This document shows, one piece after another, positions 1 through 5,335 of a stretch of 5,335 bases of DNA (position 1 is its first letter; the number at the start of each line of letters is the position of its first letter). Position numbers and translations under genes: made by a program. Source of the stretch: Microcaldota archaeon (GTDB lineage: Archaea > Micrarchaeota > Micrarchaeia > Micrarchaeales > Micrarchaeaceae); the NCBI GenBank assembly GCA_021819045.1, contig JAKASM010000037.1, positions 1-5,335 of the forward strand. The letters run 5' to 3'. The notes under the pieces were generated by a model. The model searched no databases, had not been told where the DNA came from, and saw nothing but the letters and a program-made list of their open reading frames with translations.

Positions 1-46
1 TTCTGAAGAATGAGGCAACATCTACAAGAACCGCTTCTGCCTCCAT
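1..46 (-). CDS. Start of an unidentified gene, cut by the window edge
   Basis: On the minus strand an ATG at 46-44 opens a frame of 15 codons that runs off the left edge (MEAEAVLVDVASFFR). It begins 38 nt after the CutA stop codon, on the same strand, and a copy of the repeated leader element lies just upstream, as it does before the cutA and kinase genes. That context is the main reason to call it a gene. The ATG inside the leader element is closed by a TAG that directly abuts this start, so the element itself is not part of the protein. The peptide is too short to assign a family. A rival ATG at 54-52 opens only a 10-codon frame. Confidence 0.5.
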   Translation of the reverse strand, partial: MEAEAVLVDVASFFR

Positions 47-51
47 CTACT

Positions 52-80
52 CATCCAACACTTTCATGGAAATTCTTAAA
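52..80 (-). repeat. Leader element, copy A (before the gene at 46)
   Basis: The minus strand carries the 22-nt core at 76-55: AGAATTTCC followed by ATGAAAGTGTTGG. It is preceded by TTTA (80-77). Two further copies lie at 405-426 and 968-989, each differing from this one by a single base. Here the core ends 8 nt before the proposed ATG at 46. A mini-frame starting at the ATG within the element reads MKVLDE and then stops at a TAG touching the gene's ATG. TTTAAG at the 5' side could act as a weak TATA box at about -30. The function is unknown. Confidence 0.8.
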
Positions 81-84
81 GAGT

Positions 85-402
85 TTATTTAATCGTATTA
101 CTCGCGATCCAGGAAAGGTACTCCATACTTCCGAAGATATCTGTCACGGTTATCTCTGGGAGCGCGTATCGGGACATGCGCTTTATCTCCTTTTCAACTT
201 TTGCATATACCTTTCTCTGGCTCTTTATGACCAACAGCCATTCCTTTGAGGTTTCGACCTTGCCTTTCCAGCGATAAGTACTGATTATCGGCCCTACAAC
301 CTGCACGCACGCAGCAAGCCTCTTGGCAACAAGCGTATTCGCCATACCGGTTGCGTGCCTCTTGGTGGCTGTTGTCGTAAGTATCTGCACATAGCGGTTC
401 AT
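85..402 (-). CDS. cutA: CutA1-family protein (divalent-cation tolerance / stress-related trimer)
   Basis: A 105-aa protein matching CutA1 over its whole length. It has an N-terminal strand (YVQILTTT), the helix and strand KRLAACVQVV, the STYRWKGKVE hairpin that follows, a long amphipathic stretch with the LLVIKSQ strand, and the C-terminal family signature YALPEITV...YLSWIAS. CutA1 proteins form very stable cytoplasmic trimers, bind Cu(II) in vitro and are linked to metal tolerance in Escherichia coli; their exact role in archaea is unclear. The frame is open five codons further up to an ATG at 417, but those codons (MKVLD) are the repeated leader element. In the other two copies that ATG is out of frame or closed by a stop, so the ATG at 402 is preferred. 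The gene lies 22 nt after the kinase stop, so the two are probably co-transcribed. Confidence 0.93.
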   Translation of the reverse strand: MNRYVQILTTTATKRHATGMANTLVAKRLAACVQVVGPIISTYRWKGKVETSKEWLLVIKSQRKVYAKVEKEIKRMSRYALPEITVTDIFGSMEYLSWIASNTIK

Positions 403-404
403 AT

Positions 405-426
405 CCAACACTTTCATGGAGATTCT
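405..426 (-). repeat. Leader element, copy B (before cutA)
   Basis: This is the same 22-nt core as copy A with one change (AGAATCTCC in place of AGAATTTCC on the minus strand), followed by the identical ATGAAAGTGTTGG. It fills essentially the whole gap between the kinase stop codon (427-425, which it overlaps by two bases) and the cutA ATG at 402. Only two bases (AT) separate the core from that ATG. TTAGAA at its 5' side lies about 25 nt before the ATG, a distance suitable for an archaeal TATA box of a leaderless transcript, but it is a poor TATA match. Confidence 0.85.
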
Positions 427-964
427 AACTTGTTATTATTTTAAATAATGCTCTGGGCGTCAGCGCCGCATCAACAGACCTGAAACCCATTTTCTTCGCC
501 CATTTATTATCCGCCTCTAGTTTACGCAGCACATGATCTCTTTGCGCTTTCGTTGCGCCGTAGGTTTTGCCGTGGATTTTGCTAAACTTCCCCCTTGCCC
601 TCTTGTGCAAGCGCGACAGAATCAGCTTCGTGTCGGCGTTCAGCCAATACAGCTCTTCGAAGAGGGGCATAACCTCATCAAGGTTCGCAGCATCGCTAAA
701 TGCGTACAATTCCCTGTGCTTGTATCTCATTAGCTCCCTTTTCAGCGCGTTTGTATTCCATCTCCAGTCAAAACCCTCTCTCTTGGCCCATTCGGATTTT
801 GTAGGCTTGCCTCTCGGGTTTCCCTCAGTGTCAACCCATATGCCAATTCCATCTGTGCTTCCATCAAGGACGTTTTTGCCATGCTTCTTGAAGTATTTTA
901 GGAGGGTGGTCTTGCCGCTCCCAGACACCCCAGCAATTAATACGAGCCGATGAGTACGCTTCAT
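425..964 (-). CDS. Small P-loop NTPase, nucleotide/nucleoside kinase-like
   Basis: A 179-aa single-domain P-loop protein. Walker A is GVSGSGKT at residues 12-19, right after the first hydrophobic strand (RLVLIAG), as in adenylate, shikimate and AAA_33-type kinases. A second hydrophobic strand around 86-90 (LYAFS) is followed by AANLDEV. Residues 105-118 (LYWLNADTKLILSRL) look like the strand plus Arg-containing helix before the lid of such kinases. A basic stretch at 118-133 could be the lid, and the end reads SVDAALTPRAL, like the DA-T-P closure of many small kinases. The substrate cannot be read from sequence; nucleotide, nucleoside or RNA/protein phosphorylation are all possible. The ATG at 964 lies three bases after leader copy C, whose internal ATG is out of frame, which fixes this start. 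It sits between the 86-aa gene upstream and cutA downstream. Confidence 0.82.
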   Translation of the reverse strand: MKRTHRLVLIAGVSGSGKTTLLKYFKKHGKNVLDGSTDGIGIWVDTEGNPRGKPTKSEWAKREGFDWRWNTNALKRELMRYKHRELYAFSDAANLDEVMPLFEELYWLNADTKLILSRLHKRARGKFSKIHGKTYGATKAQRDHVLRKLEADNKWAKKMGFRSVDAALTPRALFKIITS

Positions 965-967
965 ATC

Positions 968-989
968 CCAACACTTTCATAGAAATTCT
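968..989 (-). repeat. Leader element, copy C (before the kinase gene)
   Basis: This is the third copy of the 22-nt core, with one base different from copy A (TCTATG in place of TCCATG on the minus strand) and the same GAAAGTGTTGG. It lies within the 39-nt gap after the stop of the upstream 86-aa gene and ends 3 nt before the kinase ATG at 964. An extra G after the core puts the element's own ATG out of frame with the kinase, showing that the element is conserved as nucleotide sequence and not as an N-terminal peptide. TTTTAG just upstream resembles a weak TATA box. Confidence 0.85.
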
Positions 990-1003
990 AAAAGCGTTCT
1001 AAC

Positions 1004-1264
1004 CTATAAAGTTAAATTGTGCATGTTTGCATCAGCTTCTTGCTCAGCGTTTATTATGAGAGCCATGAACCCACCGTTGATATCACTATCACACAAAAAT
1101 CTACTCCATATCCTCTCCATCGCTTTCACTTCGTTCGGATGAGTTAATTCAATTATGCTCATTATCTTAATCCAATGCCCTTTCAAACTAGGATTTCCAT
1201 TAATTAACTCTCTAACCCACGCTCTGTATTTCCGTTCTAGCTCACTTATTGCCACCAAGCACAT
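1004..1264 (-). CDS. Hypothetical 86-aa protein
   Basis: I do not recognise this family. The protein is mostly predictable helix: an amphipathic first helix (ISELERKYRAWVRELI), a second segment (GHWIKIMSIIEL), then HPNEVKAMERIWSRFL and a C-terminal helix (GFMALIINAEQEA). It is rich in Trp and charged residues and has no Cys pair, no clear helix-turn-helix and no membrane span. The ATG at 1264 is chosen over an adjoining in-frame GTG at 1267 because it is the stronger start. A TATA-like run at 1290-1299 would place transcription initiation a few bases upstream of it. It is the first gene of the minus-strand run and the only one of the four without the repeated leader element. A role in regulating the run through the flanking half-sites is possible but not shown. 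Confidence 0.6.
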   Translation of the reverse strand: MCLVAISELERKYRAWVRELINGNPSLKGHWIKIMSIIELTHPNEVKAMERIWSRFLCDSDINGGFMALIINAEQEADANMHNLTL

Positions 1265-1275
1265 CACGCATTAAG

Positions 1276-1307
1276 TTTACTTTAGTAAAAATATATATAC
1301 TTTACTA
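1276..1307 (-). promoter_or_regulatory. TATA box with TTTACT/AGTAAA operator-like half-sites
   Basis: In the gap between the helicase remnant and the 86-aa gene, an A/T run (1290-1299, TATATATATT on the minus strand) lies about 30 nt before the ATG at 1264, the normal archaeal TATA position. Three 6-bp half-sites surround it: TTTACT (1276-1281), AGTAAA (1284-1289) and TTTACT (1301-1306). The first two form a close dyad with a 2-bp centre, and the outer pair TAGTAAA/TTTACTA (1283-1289 and 1301-1307) brackets the TATA box. A factor bound here would block TBP/TFB or polymerase, so a repressor operator is the natural reading. This is inference from layout only. Confidence 0.55.
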
Positions 1308-1310
1308 TAA

Positions 1311-2285
1311 TCATGCGGATCTTATCCTTGATTTGAAGAATTCCTCTGCGCTTTTATTCATAAAATAGACATAGACCCCTTTATGTGCACGTGACATTAA
1401 AACTCTATAAACATTTTTCATGTGATTGGTAAATTTTGATTTATCTCTCTTTGCCGCTGGGTCGTGGGACTTTTCCGGTATACCAATCCAAGTTTTATTT
1501 TCTCTATCATAAATAAAATCATCCCCGACTATTACACCTATGTAATCAAATTCGAATCCCTGTGAAGTATAAACCGTACCCACTTGTTCTATACCTTCTG
1601 GGAATGTTGGCCACTTCCAGAAGTTCTTCTTATTCTCCCAAGGCATTTCAAAATCGCCTATCTTAACATCATTGACCAACGTACCATCTGGCCTCGGTGG
1701 GCTCCATTTCCAGCAGAAACCAGCCACAATTCGAGCTGAATTCTGTTTTTCTTTATTTTTCTGGTAAATTGCATCCCTCAGCGCAGCCGGCGAATCAAAT
1801 ATCTTGAACTCAATTGGCTCATTTTTATCTAGAAGCCATATATCTGATGGTGTAATATCTAATGTGTTATCTAGCCATTGCATATACGTCTCTGAGCCTC
1901 CGCATCTAAACTGTGTCATCAATTCAAATTCAATTATCTCAGCATTAAACTTTTTGGCTGATTCTTTTATTAATTCTACATTTCCGACTTCATTTGGTCT
2001 AACAATCTGATGTTCGTCAAGGAAAAATACGGATAATCTAGAAGGCCTTATTATATCGTCGACCTGCGGGGCATCAGACTTCAAATTTGCTGGTACGCCA
2101 TAGTCTTTGCTATTTTTCCTTAATCGATGTGCCTCGTCGCAGATTAGAACATCAATCTCATTTTCTTTATGATGTGTAAAGCTGAAAAAGTACTTGAATC
2201 TATCTTTAGCTCTGCTTCCAACTACACTTTTTAGCGTCTTAGTGAAGGTAGCCGAGCCCGTGATATAGAAAACCTGCTTTCTAGC
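1311..2285 (-). pseudogene. 5'-truncated DUF2075 / superfamily 1 helicase-like ATPase
   Basis: The frame is open from just after a TAG at 2288-2286 to the TGA at 1313-1311 (324 codons). It holds the C-terminal part of a DUF2075-type ATPase, in order: FYITGSATFTKTL, the Walker B segment VLICDEAHRLRK (about residues 49-60), the sensor-like FFLDEHQIVRP, the Q-F-R segment LMTQFRCGG, the YTSQGFEFDYIGVIVG motif, and the terminal MKNVYRVLMSRAHKGVYVYF carrying the arginine-finger-like RVLMSR. Walker A and everything before it are absent. No ATG or GTG start occurs before a TTG at 2084, which lies after Walker B. ATP binding is therefore impossible as it stands. The break is at about 2285-2290, against the end of the neighbouring gene. 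The remnant is visibly AT-richer than that gene, which suggests foreign origin and deletion of the 5' half. Family members often accompany restriction-like or mobile genes. Confidence 0.85.
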
Positions 2286-2712
2286 CTAAACCAATGCCTT
2301 GCTGAGGCTTAATGTCAGGATTGCTCGTGTGCCTGCAGATCGCGTAATAGACTAGCCAGTAGCCCCCATGCTTTATGCTTTTCCCAACGCTTGGACTTGG
2401 CCCGTTCATGTCGATCGAGTGGGCGTCGACCCTGTTCTCTTTCTGGAGCTTGCTGAGCGCGTCGCTGAACGCCAGCTCGTGCTGCCCATTGCCCTCCTCG
2501 TCTGGCACAGTGCCGTATATCCCTAAGTAAATCTCCTCTTCTGTATAGGCGTGCTCCTGATGGCTTTCCAGGAAGTCCAGTATCATAGGCGGCATCTGCC
2601 CAGCCAGCTCTTCCCTCTTAGCCCCATCTGCCTTGAACTTGGCTATCTCCCTCTCTCTTACCTCGCGCCCGCGCCTCTCTATGTCATCCAATACATCCAT
2701 TCTTATTGGCAT
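2281..2712 (-). CDS. Hypothetical 143-aa protein, possible winged-helix domain
   Basis: I do not recognise a named family. Residues 6-40 form a highly charged, probably helical segment (DDIERRGREVREREIAKF). Residues 41-120 have a plausible winged-helix pattern: a helix MPPMILDFLESHQ, then YTEEEIYLGIYG, a recognition-helix-like FSDALSKLQKENRV, and a strand pair ending in GGYWLVYYAI. This suggests a DNA-binding protein, but it is a pattern judgement only. The ATG at 2712 is supported by a good Shine-Dalgarno match (AGGTGA) a few bases upstream and a TATA box beyond it. It follows the broken transposase by 56 bp. Its TAG stop overlaps the first codons of the helicase remnant, so its last residues (about QQGIGLG) could themselves come from the junction. 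Base composition is richer in G+C than the helicase remnant. Confidence 0.65.
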   Translation of the reverse strand: MPIRMDVLDDIERRGREVREREIAKFKADGAKREELAGQMPPMILDFLESHQEHAYTEEEIYLGIYGTVPDEEGNGQHELAFSDALSKLQKENRVDAHSIDMNGPSPSVGKSIKHGGYWLVYYAICRHTSNPDIKPQQGIGLG

Positions 2713-2716
2713 GATG

Positions 2717-2750
2717 TCACCTACGGTGTTTTGCTGGCTAAGTATTTATG
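2717..2750 (-). promoter_or_regulatory. TATA box and Shine-Dalgarno for the gene at 2712
   Basis: On the minus strand CATAAATAC (2750-2742) lies about 34 nt before the ATG at 2712, and AGGTGA (2722-2717) lies four bases before it. The latter matches the archaeal GGAGGTGAT ribosome-binding consensus. This implies a short leader of roughly 8-10 nt, with its own promoter independent of the transposase remnant upstream. Confidence 0.5.
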
Positions 2751-2768
2751 CGATTTGGAGATTTTGCT

Positions 2769-3383
2769 TTACTTCACTGCATCATACAATTCATGGAAGA
2801 ATTTCTTATCGTTCCTATTCGCAGGCGCGACCACAAAACACAGCGGAAGTTCTCTTTCTGCGTCTGCAATCATATGCAGTTTATATCCATAGACAAAGGC
2901 ATTTGCTGTACTTTTATTAGCGAACTGTTCCTTTTTCGATGGCGTTCTATGTCCTAATCTTGCTTCTAGATCGTTCTGTGAATGCGCGGATACATCAGTG
3001 CTGTCCTGTGCCATCAGTCTAACTTGTTTACCTTTCATAACCTGAGACGTTAAAAGTTCGTGGAGATCCTCCATTATTTTAGTTGCATGTTTTCTTACCT
3101 TGGAAAAGATTGTGAAATCAAAATGGCGTTTGTATCCTAAAATCTCTCCTAAGACGTCATTTGATAGGAATTCTGCCAGGTCTCTATCTGTTAGCACCTT
3201 AATCTGTTTTACAATCAATGCAACAATATGTTTGGCGTACTTTCGCGTATGCCCGTGCCTCTGTACAACAACTCTGGCAGCTGCCAGAACCTCATGTATT
3301 TTAGTTTTTAGGTCATCTATATTCACTGGATCGCCTTGACGCAGGGGATTTACAGTCGAAGAGAAAAGAGAACCTGCGTTCAA
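2769..3383 (-). pseudogene. Truncated IS4/IS5-like DDE transposase
   Basis: The frame encodes an N-terminal helical domain followed by the start of a DDE (Transposase_11-like) catalytic domain. The first catalytic Asp lies in MAQDSTD (D127 counting from the TTG at 3383), and the YGYKLHMIADAERELP segment (165-180) and VAPANRNDKKFF (185-196) follow. These are typical of the strands between the first and second catalytic Asp. The protein stops at residue 204 (...ELYDAVK), before the second Asp and the Glu, so it cannot transpose. The missing C-terminal half is not found downstream; the next gene's promoter begins within about 20 bp. Translation more likely begins at a GTG (3326-3324), preceded by a GGCGATC ribosome-binding-like site and lying a realistic distance from the TATA box, giving 185 aa. 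No terminal inverted repeats could be identified. Confidence 0.82.
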
Positions 3384-3388
3384 GGTGT

Positions 3389-3396
3389 TATATAAA
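3389..3396 (-). promoter_or_regulatory. TATA box upstream of the transposase remnant
   Basis: TTTATATAA on the minus strand is the best TATA match in the window. Initiation about 25 nt downstream would fall near 3368. That is after the TTG at 3383 but before the GTG at 3326, which is why the GTG is favoured as the translation start of the transposase fragment. Confidence 0.5.
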
Positions 3397-3451
3397 CAGA
3401 ACTATTTTAAGATTTCAACAGCCTACAAAATCACCAAACACAATAGGGGAA

Positions 3452-3496
3452 GCTGCCACTCCGCTTTAGAATACGCCCCAATCCAAGAGTGGTAGC
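3452..3496. other. Intergenic hairpin with a 10-bp stem
   Basis: GCTGCCACTC (3452-3461) pairs with GAGTGGTAGC (3487-3496) over ten consecutive positions, nine Watson-Crick and one G-T, around a 25-nt loop. It stands in a 244-bp region (3384-3627) with no coding frame worth calling. It could be part of a small RNA, a transcription-related hairpin, or a leftover end of the damaged insertion sequence. There is no T-run after it on either strand, so a simple terminator is unlikely. Confidence 0.45.
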
Positions 3497-3523
3497 CGAA
3501 TGATTTTCTGCGCACAGCATAAA

Positions 3524-3567
3524 TCTGTCCATAAACTCCATATTCTGTCCAAAAACCCAGAGTTTAT
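3524..3567. repeat. 20-bp imperfect tandem repeat with an inverted repeat
   Basis: TCTGTCCA occurs at 3524-3531 and again at 3544-3551. The two 20-bp units beginning there agree at about 14 of 20 positions. Overlapping them, ATAAACTC (3531-3538) and GAGTTTAT (3560-3567) are an exact 8-bp inverted repeat. The structure ends about 28 bp before the TATA box of the peptidase gene, a fitting place for an activator or repressor site. Confidence 0.5.
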
Positions 3568-3594
3568 GAACAAAGTTCAAGGAGTGCAAACGCT

Positions 3595-3604
3595 TAATAA
3601 TATA
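3595..3604 (+). promoter_or_regulatory. TATA box of the peptidase S51 gene
   Basis: TAATAATATA is centred about 28 nt before the ATG at 3628, with an A-containing BRE-like stretch (GCAAACGC) just upstream. No Shine-Dalgarno sequence precedes the ATG (AAATTTGTATTGCTTTT). The transcript is therefore probably leaderless or nearly so. Confidence 0.6.
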
Positions 3605-3627
3605 GTCTCAAAATTTGTATTGCTTTT

Positions 3628-4311
3628 ATGGTTAACGTTCTGATCTCAGGGGGTGGCGTAAAGTCTGACACAAGGCTTGCCAAACTAATAGTTTCGCTTA
3701 TTCCAAGGAATGGAAGATTACTCTACATACCAGTTGCAATGCCGACAAACAAATACAGTTTTGGCCAATGCTATGACTGGGTGACTGCAATATTCAGGCG
3801 CTATGGACTTGTGAGAATTGATATGATGACAGATCTTAGTGACAGAAAGTATGAAGACATTGCAAAATATTCCGCGGTTTTCATAGGCGGTGGAAACACT
3901 TTCCATCTATTGAACTTGATAAGAAAAACTGGCTTTGATCGCTTGCTTATAGAGTACATAAAAAGCAATAAGCCAGTCTATGGCGGCAGCGCAGGAGCCA
4001 TACTACTTGGTAAGGATATAGGCACAGCCTACTTTGGCGGTGATGCTGACAAGAACGAGGTTGGAATAAAGGATTTAAAGGGATTAAATTTTGTAAAAGG
4101 TTATTCGATAGCTTGCCATCAAAATAAGAAAAGCGATGTGAATGACGCAATGAGGTATTCGGTCAAAACTAGAATACCCACAATATCCCTTCCAGACGGA
4201 ACAGGCTTGCACGTCAAGGGCAAAAGAATACTTGTAGTTGGGCCAAACTCTGCCACTGTCTTCAAAGGAAAGACGAGAAAAGTATTCAAAGCCGGTTCTC
4301 TAATAATATAA
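3628..4311 (+). CDS. Peptidase S51 family protein (dipeptidase E-like)
   Basis: A 227-aa protein, close to the usual length of dipeptidase E (about 230 aa), with a class I glutamine-amidotransferase-like fold. The N-terminal strand and glycine turn (VLISGGG, 4-10) is followed by LLYIPVA. The IGGGNTFHLL motif is at 86-95. The nucleophile elbow is GGSAGAILLG (119-128) with predicted catalytic Ser121. IACHQN (161-166) supplies His164, and acidic residues at 139-144 lie where the family's third catalytic residue is expected. Bacterial PepE cleaves dipeptides with N-terminal Asp; other S51 members are cyanophycinases. The lack of cyanophycin-related genes and the short length favour an aspartyl dipeptidase-like cytoplasmic enzyme, but substrate is inferred. 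There is no signal peptide. It has its own promoter and converges with the nuclease gene, leaving a 39-bp gap. Confidence 0.88.
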   Translation: MVNVLISGGGVKSDTRLAKLIVSLIPRNGRLLYIPVAMPTNKYSFGQCYDWVTAIFRRYGLVRIDMMTDLSDRKYEDIAKYSAVFIGGGNTFHLLNLIRKTGFDRLLIEYIKSNKPVYGGSAGAILLGKDIGTAYFGGDADKNEVGIKDLKGLNFVKGYSIACHQNKKSDVNDAMRYSVKTRIPTISLPDGTGLHVKGKRILVVGPNSATVFKGKTRKVFKAGSLII

Positions 4312-4350
4312 AAAGCCTGGCGTGGCTAGAGCTGCATTCATCTTTGAGGA

Positions 4351-5055
4351 TCATTGGTGTGCCCTTTTCGGCAGCTTCTGCAGGTCCTCAAGCCTCCTGC
4401 AATCATCGCATCCATATAGGCCCTTCGGCGGCCCTTCCATGGAATATATTTTAAGAGCTTTCCCCATCAGTGCCTCTATTTCTCCAGTGTCCTTTCTTAC
4501 CCTGCGTAGGTTGGGCTTGAACGGCATATCAAAGCCGTAGCCGTTGACGTGCTCCCTTGAAAGCTCCTCAAAGCCTTCTGATGGCGGCTCAAAATAGACG
4601 AGGTAGAGGGATTTCACACCACCGAGTAGGAGCGACTCGGCTATATAGGCGTAGCCGTTCAGCTGGATCTCATACATCGGAAAAAAGGAATCCTGCCTGT
4701 CGGTATACCTTGCCGTTTTGTAGTCTACTATTATTATGTCGCCATCAGTTGACCTAAAAATCTCATCCGGAATCCCAGTAAGCCTAACGCCACGCCTTTC
4801 CACAAAGAAGCCCTTTGGAATGCTGATTATGCTATCTACATCGCCGATGCCCTTCAGCCATTCAGGCAGGCTGCCGGTCCTCTCAAAGTGGTGCTTAACC
4901 ATCCTCTTTGTATAGGTGTCTATAGAAGAGAATATTCCTGGGAAGCCTCTCTGGTACGGAAGCTCCATGTGCCTTTCTATCCAAAAGCACCGCGGGCAGA
5001 ACCCGTCCATTTTCAAATTCCCAAGGTCCTTGGCTGATATTTTAAGGGAGTACAC
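4351..5055 (-). CDS. PD-(D/E)XK nuclease with Cas4-like four-Cys (Fe-S) pattern
   Basis: A 234-aa protein of the PDDEXK_1 / RecB-Cas4-like nuclease group. The catalytic core is GIPDEIF (Asp97), then IIIVDYKTARY (Asp111, Lys113) and the downstream Q-x-x-x-Y motif QLNGY (Gln131, Tyr135), as in RecB-type nucleases. Two Cys pairs flank the core: CPRC at 20-23 and CDDC at 216-219. Together they could bind a 4Fe-4S cluster or zinc, as Cas4 and AddB do. The order is two plus two, whereas typical Cas4 has one N-terminal and three C-terminal Cys. Single-strand DNA end processing in repair or defence is the likely type of role. There are no cas genes or repeats nearby, so it should not be called Cas4. 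The start is a GTG at 5055, fixed by AGGAGTG seven bases upstream. Confidence 0.85.
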   Translation of the reverse strand: MYSLKISAKDLGNLKMDGFCPRCFWIERHMELPYQRGFPGIFSSIDTYTKRMVKHHFERTGSLPEWLKGIGDVDSIISIPKGFFVERRGVRLTGIPDEIFRSTDGDIIIVDYKTARYTDRQDSFFPMYEIQLNGYAYIAESLLLGGVKSLYLVYFEPPSEGFEELSREHVNGYGFDMPFKPNLRRVRKDTGEIEALMGKALKIYSMEGPPKGLYGCDDCRRLEDLQKLPKRAHQ

Positions 5056-5062
5056 GTTTTTA

Positions 5063-5069
5063 CACTCCT
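5063..5069 (-). promoter_or_regulatory. Shine-Dalgarno for the nuclease gene's GTG start
   Basis: AGGAGTG on the minus strand lies 7 nt before the GTG at 5055 and decides that start. A TTTAAA at 5084-5079, inside the palindrome GCTTTAAAGC (5077-5086), resembles a TATA box. It would however start the transcript at about the GTG itself and exclude the ribosome site, so the true promoter may lie further right. Confidence 0.6.
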
Positions 5070-5160
5070 GCTTTTAGCTTTAAAGCACTTTTGGTGCACC
5101 CAAATAGACCGCCCGGGCTGTTTCGCATGAAGCTGTCAGCATTCAGGAAACAAGGCAGCG

Positions 5161-5215
5161 TAGGGTGGCGCATCTCTGACATCCTCCCACGAATAAATTC
5201 TGTGGGGTTCCCGCT
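5161..5215 (+). mobile_element. IS200/IS605-family (IS1341/TnpB-type) right-end remnant
   Basis: The stretch TCTGACATCCTCCC (5174-5187), followed by a hairpin and a GGGGTTCCC tail (5204-5212), is characteristic of the right ends of IS605/IS1341-group elements, which also form the 3' part of the TnpB guide RNA scaffold. The hairpin pairs CCCAC (5186-5190) with GTGGG (5202-5206) and continues with GAA/TTC (5191-5193 and 5198-5200) around a small loop, with one bulged T at 5201. The matching tnpB gene should lie to the left on the plus strand, but that side holds the nuclease gene on the other strand. Only a short frame ending in the TGA at 5177-5179 could be a tnpB tail. I infer a solo or decayed end. 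Recognition is from memory of such ends, not a search. Confidence 0.6.
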
Positions 5216-5335
5216 ATGGACTGATAAATCTCAGAAAGCCTTTTAGCTATGGATACATGTATAATTTTGCATTCTTTTATTGGCTACCTCATTCGTTCAA
5301 ATTTGATACCTTTATACCATGGTGGTTCTCCATGT
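5216..5335. other. Non-coding right edge, no gene supported
   Basis: No convincing coding frame is visible. There is a 10-bp perfect palindrome ATACATGTAT (5253-5262) and an 8-bp palindrome ACCATGGT (5317-5324). An ATG at 5319-5321 opens a plus-strand frame that leaves the window after five codons, and TTTTAT (5274-5279) lies upstream of it. This is too little to call a gene. The stretch is AT-rich compared with 5101-5215. Confidence 0.35.

Follow-up and report, generated by a model that had tools for sequence, protein, structure and literature searches.

A 24-nt site as the probable boundary of exchangeable gene cassettes in a micrarchaeal chromosome

Integrons and CALINs hold short unrelated genes in tandem, mostly in one orientation, with a recurrent site that is polar to a fixed point, and their distribution is patchy. 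In the attC site, the R' (GTTRRRY) and R'' (RYYYAAC) boxes pair in the folded bottom strand. In the Xer dif site, a pair of 11-bp inverted arms stands about a 6-bp centre. Archaeal integrons have been reported, and the main text of that report contains no occurrence of Micrarchaeota (PMC9668308). As outlined in PMC13141974 and PMC6449649, the dif (pdif) modules of Acinetobacter are small, often carry toxin-antitoxin genes and are shuffled by XerC/XerD at short conserved sites. The archaeal XerA/dif site is portrayed in PMC8371274 as a short chromosomal site with inverted repeats that serves dimer resolution, and not as a cassette array. Among the matches listed from the open-licence PubMed Central literature, no gene cassette, integron or recombination-site system of the kind considered here was described for Micrarchaeota.

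Here we analyse a window of 5,335 nt (the whole stretch of DNA studied) from Microcaldota archaeon (assembly GCA_021819045.1, contig JAKASM010000037.1, positions 1 to 5,335), in which a short site, named E1, stands ahead of three consecutive genes. E1 is probably the boundary site of a gene-cassette array in the micrarchaeal chromosome, with cassettes exchanged at E1. Comparison of sequences shows the site itself, its polarity, its clustering, the turnover of genes between copies and breaks of homology at the site. These arrays share with integrons and CALINs the short unrelated genes in tandem, mostly in one orientation, the recurrent site with its polarity and the patchy distribution. Unlike integrons, E1 is only 24 nt long, is conserved in sequence and is without the attC R boxes; no IntI was found beside it, and its array has the fixed core at the 3' end and, in addition, a second arm whose genes run the other way. 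E1 is not an integron attC. The small modules, short conserved sites and shuffling are shared with pdif modules, whereas the E1 locus is chromosomal and archaeal, its sites all lie in one direction, no XerC/XerD-type arms were seen, and several of the genomes with E1 arrays have no detectable tyrosine recombinase. Like archaeal dif, E1 is a short chromosomal site, but such inverted arms were not seen in it.

Three copies of E1 and the genes they divide

An earlier note on this DNA described three near-identical 22-nt copies on the same strand, just ahead of start codons. They are real: the minus-strand copies AGAATTTCCATGAAAGTGTTGG (76-55), AGAATCTCCATGAAAGTGTTGG (426-405) and AGAATTTCTATGAAAGTGTTGG (989-968) are invariant at 20 of 22 positions and end 8 nt ahead of the left gene (start at 46), 2 nt ahead of cutA (402) and 3 nt ahead of the kinase gene (964), in spacers of 38, 22 and 39 nt, respectively. 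The ATG in the element is, as claimed, in frame with cutA only, being out of frame with the kinase gene and closed by TAG before the left gene, and no copy precedes the gene that starts at 1264. With up to 3 mismatches allowed, no copy besides these three occurs in the window, and 0 of 200 shuffles gave a match. The 22-nt copies thus stand as described, but the conserved unit is slightly longer, a 24-nt sequence from TTAG to TTGG (TTAGAATTTCYATGAAAGTGTTGG on the minus strand; Table 1), of which copy 1 starts with TAAG and copy 2 has C at base 8. E1 denotes this 24-nt site, TTAGAATTTCYATGAAAGTRTTRG, which contains the 22-nt element; in the profile of related copies a loose A-rich stretch precedes it. 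The element is true and unusual, and it had been framed too small.

The view that the element is preserved as DNA and not as protein also holds: ATG is present in just 37 of 56 related copies, with ATT in 12, ATA in 4 and another triplet in 3, which removes a uORF or start-codon reading. A protein-coding reading was rejected as well. P0004, a homologue of the kinase, has a longer annotated start, and its N-terminal extension contains NFHESVG, the element in another frame, which we take as a mis-called start; the starts at 964 and 402 are the same methionines as in the nearest kinase and cutA homologues. The NFHESVG extension was the first hint that the element is conserved. Recent tandem duplication within this genome, which the earlier note had raised, does not account for the copies.

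The kinase has few homologues (a search of 5.8 billion proteins gave 7 at E 1e-3), and a first protein scan of genome contigs found no relative. One homologue, P0005, belongs to a MAG labelled Marsarchaeota, and the contig carrying it was also recovered when genome contigs were scanned with the element. Upstream of the array, G212 has an open frame of 615 aa at the position of the helicase. Beyond the break of the helicase in the window lie an ORFan (2281-2712) and then a DDE transposase fragment (2769-3383).

Table 1. Features of the array and its upstream neighbours in the window.
Feature	Position	Strand	Remarks
Start of left-edge gene, next cassette gene (MEAEAVLVDVASFFR...)	1..46	-	Cut by window edge
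E1 copy 1	55..78	-	Divides cutA from the gene running off the left edge
CutA1 cassette gene, 105 aa	85..402	-	PF03091, 1.2e-28
E1 copy 2	405..428	-	Divides the kinase gene from cutA; kinase stop TAG is E1 bases 2-4
Small P-loop kinase-like cassette gene, 179 aa	425..964	-	AAA_18, E 4.7e-6, 27.5 bits, under the Pfam cut-off of 29.4
E1 copy 3	968..991	-	TTAGAATTTC at 991-982, then TATGAAAGTGTTGG at 981-968; divides the 86-aa gene from the kinase gene
86-aa gene, ATG start, before the first E1	1004..1264	-	No Pfam match; also in G212
Schlafen-group-3 type helicase, C-terminal part, upstream neighbour of the array	1311..2285	-	Cut off at 2285

Distribution of E1 and gene content of its arrays

At up to 3 mismatches, E1 was found in 27 of 301 genomes of the Micrarchaeota phylum, with 48 matches in total and 1-5 per genome; some single 3-mismatch matches may be chance. 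The same pattern read backwards matched in 2 of the 301. In all 12 genomes with at least two matches these lay on a single strand, and in 11 of the 12 on a single contig. A profile trained on the stronger copies recovered 56 E1 copies in the window and 24 further loci, always on one strand per locus, and none in reversed sequences. This count includes G195 and G253:C8, which were excluded from the analysis of the core, and the locus set leaves out five of the 27 genomes with one 3-mismatch match each (G032, G105, G126, G152 and G194). The arrays are short, with 1-6 E1 each, and their distribution is patchy. Such numbers do not fit the general signal ahead of starts that the earlier note had considered, since a genome holds only 1-5 matches and these are clustered where repeated.

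Scanning genome contigs with the element returned 13 stretches, 5 of them archaeal (3 labelled Micrarchaeota, 1 Marsarchaeota and 1 Nanoarchaeota) and 8 bacterial. The Nanoarchaeota label or bin (L002/L135) is doubtful, because the stretch is 99.8% identical over 1.9 kb to a Micrarchaeota stretch (L003/L136). The bacterial hits look like chance: of the 8 genomes, 4 carry a single match at 2-3 mismatches, one genome has a match to the control pattern, and by eye the profile hits there do not keep the TTAG end. No plasmid match was found for positions 1-1300 of the window and no phage match for the kinase; viral contigs held no exact GAATYTCYATGAAAGTGTTGG and, among the matches listed (at least 600 candidate stretches), no relative of the kinase. 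A looser 16-nt pattern occurred in 110 viral stretches, where the profile hits look like chance by eye and the TTAG end is again not kept. A virus or plasmid origin of the element was rejected on these searches.

Between E1 copies stand differing genes in differing orders, among them those for CutA, kinase, deaminase, NUDIX, phosphatases, acetyltransferase, glyoxalase, PIN and others. A cassette is usually one short gene and sometimes a VapBC-type pair, and E1 often takes up nearly all of the gap from stop to start. Gene offsets were taken for 55 E1 copies with a score of at least 20 (one E1 below 20 was dropped), with ORFs called mechanically. An ORF of at least 60 aa starts no more than 48 nt from the first base of E1 in 36 of the 55, five of these starts being the ATG inside E1, and no more than 220 nt away in 46; the offsets range from 11 to 193 nt. 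On the other side, the stop codon of an ORF of at least 60 aa ends between 25 nt before E1 and 3 nt into it in 34 of the 55.

The 48 ORFs of at least 50 aa that follow E1 fall into 29 blastp clusters. Families that recur after E1 are the deaminase (7 loci), kinases (5) and low-molecular-weight phosphatase (4 sites). At E 1e-3, 15 of 20 proteins of the E1 arm match Pfam (14 above the cut-off), most of them as small enzymes or PIN domains. The families are deaminase, LMWPc, GNAT, NUDIX, pyrophosphatase, S51 peptidase, glyoxalase, HAD, alpha/beta hydrolase, transglutaminase-like (two, one under the cut-off), AN1 zinc finger, histidine phosphatase and PIN (two). Compared between loci, the arrays consist of tandem, mostly co-oriented single-gene cassettes that are exchangeable.

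Homology ends, the noncoding core and the second arm

Ends of blastn alignments were compared with the positions of E1. Among the 88 ends lying no more than 600 nt from the outermost E1, 31 fell at E1 in both partners, compared with a mean of 0.26 and a maximum of 6 in 1000 rotations of the E1 positions. These counts exclude HSPs shorter than 100 nt, ends no more than 40 nt from a contig edge, and the pair G002 and G003 (99.8% identical). Since homology can be expected to end in gene gaps of any kind, a gene-gap control was run. When all 298 ends were considered, 31 lay at E1 in both partners (56 E1, in 35 gaps) and 13 lay in E1-free gaps in both partners (233 such gaps). Counted in at least one partner, 62 lay in E1-free gaps and 54 at E1, and many ends lay at neither.

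Individual loci show what lies on each side of such ends. The cutA unit, taken from E1 to E1, recurs in G248 at 89.8% identity, with a deaminase gene before it and a HAD gene after it, and the kinase unit, again from E1 to E1, recurs in G250 at 82% identity with other neighbours. Over 1333 nt that cover the helicase and the 86-aa gene, the window matches G212 at 98.9% identity, and the two diverge inside E1 copy 3. Near this junction they have one difference in the last 60 nt, 5 nt ahead of E1, agree through TTAGAATTTC, and past it differ at E1 positions 10 and 19 (counted from 0) and beyond. Similarly, G168 and G250 share 98.9% identity across 1423 nt, remain alike up to the end of TTAGAATTTCT and diverge after it; here blastn extends 19 nt past E1, the break inside E1 was read by eye, and the site on the G168 side is degenerate.

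From these two pairs of loci we infer a crossover point just after TTAGAATTTC. Cassettes would be exchanged at E1 by crossover at this point, such that the left ten bases of E1 would stay with the upstream gene and YATGAAAGTRTTRG would travel with the downstream gene; the E1 copies all face one way, towards the core. No cassette was seen to be excised or inserted. Recombination or loss also occurred inside cassettes in G001 and G212, and homologous or illegitimate exchange contributes. In G001 (L134, 5986-6131) a 5' piece of a deaminase gene is fused to an apparent kinase 3' end just ahead of E1, and G212 has a kinase stub after E1. A tract of 411 nt is 97.8% identical between G263 (L182, 10188-10593) and G004 (L188, 5970-6380), genomes that are otherwise divergent, and ends at E1 in G004 only; it would represent a recent transfer or a misassembly.

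The fixed point of the arrays is a conserved noncoding core of about 300 nt downstream of the last E1, towards which the E1 copies point. It follows the last E1 in all 20 loci (19 genomes) where both were seen on one stretch; for the array in the window itself, the core would be expected past the left edge. Queried with the G265 core, blastn at E 1e-3 or better found matches in 31 of 301 genomes, the weaker ones being short. In 9 of 9 other genomes with the core adjoining E1, the core has the orientation of E1; this result rests on blastn, as a MAFFT alignment of 20 cores set directions inconsistently. When 14 core-bearing stretches were profiled, 9 were without an E1-like copy; four of the 14 that have an E1-like copy and add to the 20 loci (in G253, G268, G198 and, weakly, G188) also have the core downstream. 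At the threshold used (11), the reversed control gave 2 hits, and G198 has a second weak copy (11.6) past the core. In five genomes (G002, G241, G253, G265 and G269) an E1 copy, degenerate in G002 and G253, abuts the core with no called gene between, which again does not suit a general start signal and is how an empty site might look.

The cores are rich in symmetrical words. TTYCA-N-YGRAA palindromes number 32 in 6.6 kb of 15 cores vs 77 in all 334 kb (cores included), and TTCCAT-N5-YGRAACRAAA motifs are repeated at similar positions, for example in L184:9316-9766. These words and motifs resemble archaeal origin recognition boxes, and the core is possibly an origin or partition region. In G265, of which 747 of 990 kb were read, the core lies in a broad minimum of cumulative GC skew (450-720 kb). 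An orc1-linked origin was rejected, orc1/cdc6 being 311-371 kb off in G249, G260 and G265 and on different contigs in other genomes. A structured RNA was rejected also, since the G269 core gave z of -0.45 on one strand and +0.08 on the other vs shuffles, and Rfam at gathering thresholds gave no match in the window or in eight array loci.

Past the core lies a second arm, in which genes are directed back at the core and palindromic sites of the TTAGAWATTCTAA type, named E2, stand between them (G269 L185, G265 L184, G249 L178 and G001 L134). E2 is related to E1: a profile built from 20 E2 words alone recovers 37 of 51 E1 copies. This profile gave 70 same-strand and 55 opposite-strand hits, palindromes being counted on both strands, vs 8 in reversed controls. 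Eight of 9 E2-arm proteins have no Pfam match.

Readings of E1 and the enzyme question

The earlier note had proposed a promoter, a substitute for Shine-Dalgarno, an RNA processing site or an operator, and none of these roles predicts that homology stops at the element and that unrelated genes lie beyond. We prefer a cassette boundary because it predicts both; E1 may have a secondary role in expression. The most serious rival, which we consider unlikely though well worth weighing, has E1 serve a hypervariable, co-regulated locus as promoter, as operator or as a leader for both transcription and ribosome binding; genes there would be swapped by ordinary homologous or illegitimate recombination, and E1 would be kept since every gene needs it. 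A shared leader or operator of a regulon would likewise be a conserved word just ahead of several starts, and the 36 of 55 E1 copies with a start within 48 nt agree with that. The A/T-rich TTTAGAAT has its E1 part beginning 24-33 nt ahead of the ORF start in 24 of 55 copies, a plausible distance for a leaderless promoter. The AGTG near the start resembles a word of G265 genes: in 418 upstream regions of that genome, GGTG is enriched at -9 to -6. TATA-like words are enriched there at -38 to -35, so that G265 genes seem usually to have short leaders with a Shine-Dalgarno word. The peak of TATA-like words in this one genome is, however, not near -28. A leader or operator also predicts neither breaks of homology at the word nor copies without a gene, whereas E1 abuts the noncoding core in the five genomes above; E1 also stands directly behind stop codons, the related E2 lies at the 3' ends of oppositely directed genes, and the breaks inside the element between loci that are 98.9% identical are left unexplained. 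The count of ends in at least one partner, which does not favour E1, slightly lowers our estimate for cassette exchange and slightly raises that for a promoter.

The other readings fare worse. It is improbable that E1 is a hijacked chromosomal dif-like site, with the cassettes as Xer modules resolved by XerA near the terminus. A size near 28 nt, clustered sites, gene modules with PIN domains, the palindromic E2 and the place of the G265 core in a skew minimum would all suit this, but that minimum is broad and comes from one genome, E1 does not have two 11-nt inverted arms about a 6-nt centre (by eye, the 56-copy profile shows only a TTTC-N3-GAAA symmetry at the middle), and PF00589 finds no match in 6 of 21 array genomes, including G265. 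An attC of an integron-type system, as in a CALIN with IntI elsewhere, is very improbable: the array logic is the same and archaeal integrons do exist, as reported in PMC9668308, but GTTRRRY occurs in 10 of 56 E1 copies and together with RYYYAAC within 130 nt upstream in none of the 56, E1 with 50-nt flanks folds worse (mean -15.1, RNA parameters) than windows drawn at random from those loci (-17.8), and E1 is conserved in sequence while attC is not. We give no more credence than this to the view that E1 signals 3' processing or termination for the upstream gene. The stop codons at or just before E1 in 34 of 55 copies and the E2 sites behind the stops of the opposite arm would agree with such a signal, in contrast to the weak folding, the lack of a U tract and the few copies per genome that use it.

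For cassette exchange at E1, we infer recognition of the site by a site-specific recombinase that would act from another place in the genome or from a mobile element. Neither a tyrosine nor a serine recombinase was found beside E1; arrays near contig ends leave room for a neighbouring recombinase beyond the contig. PF00589 matched in 15 of the 21 array genomes (14 above the cut-off) and in four only (G004, G227, G249 and G256) on the array contig, 31-113 kb off at the nearest. It was absent from the remaining six, including G265 with its 990-kb contig, an absence that is weakened by MAG incompleteness, least so for G265. The serine resolvase profile PF00239, the one serine profile used, matched in 0 of 20 genomes.

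As a tentative proposal that we hold to be somewhat short of probable, Micrarchaeota may own an independent cassette-capture platform with two arms, E1 genes directed towards the core and E2 genes directed back, and a core of about 300 nt, in which insertion or exchange at E1 and E2 would be carried out by a recombinase of an unrecognised family or by one that a host or a mobile element supplies. Gene acquisition and swapping in small-genome DPANN archaea are poorly understood. The 24-nt word and the core provide a search handle for metagenome reads, with which gene exchange could be followed inside a species as well as across species, and the cassette pool could be listed. The E1 arrays also allow a hunt for the enzyme by co-occurrence and, if the enzyme is new, it would represent another route to integron-like arrays. 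Such a platform, if true, would be an integron analogue in genome-reduced archaea with its own site chemistry.
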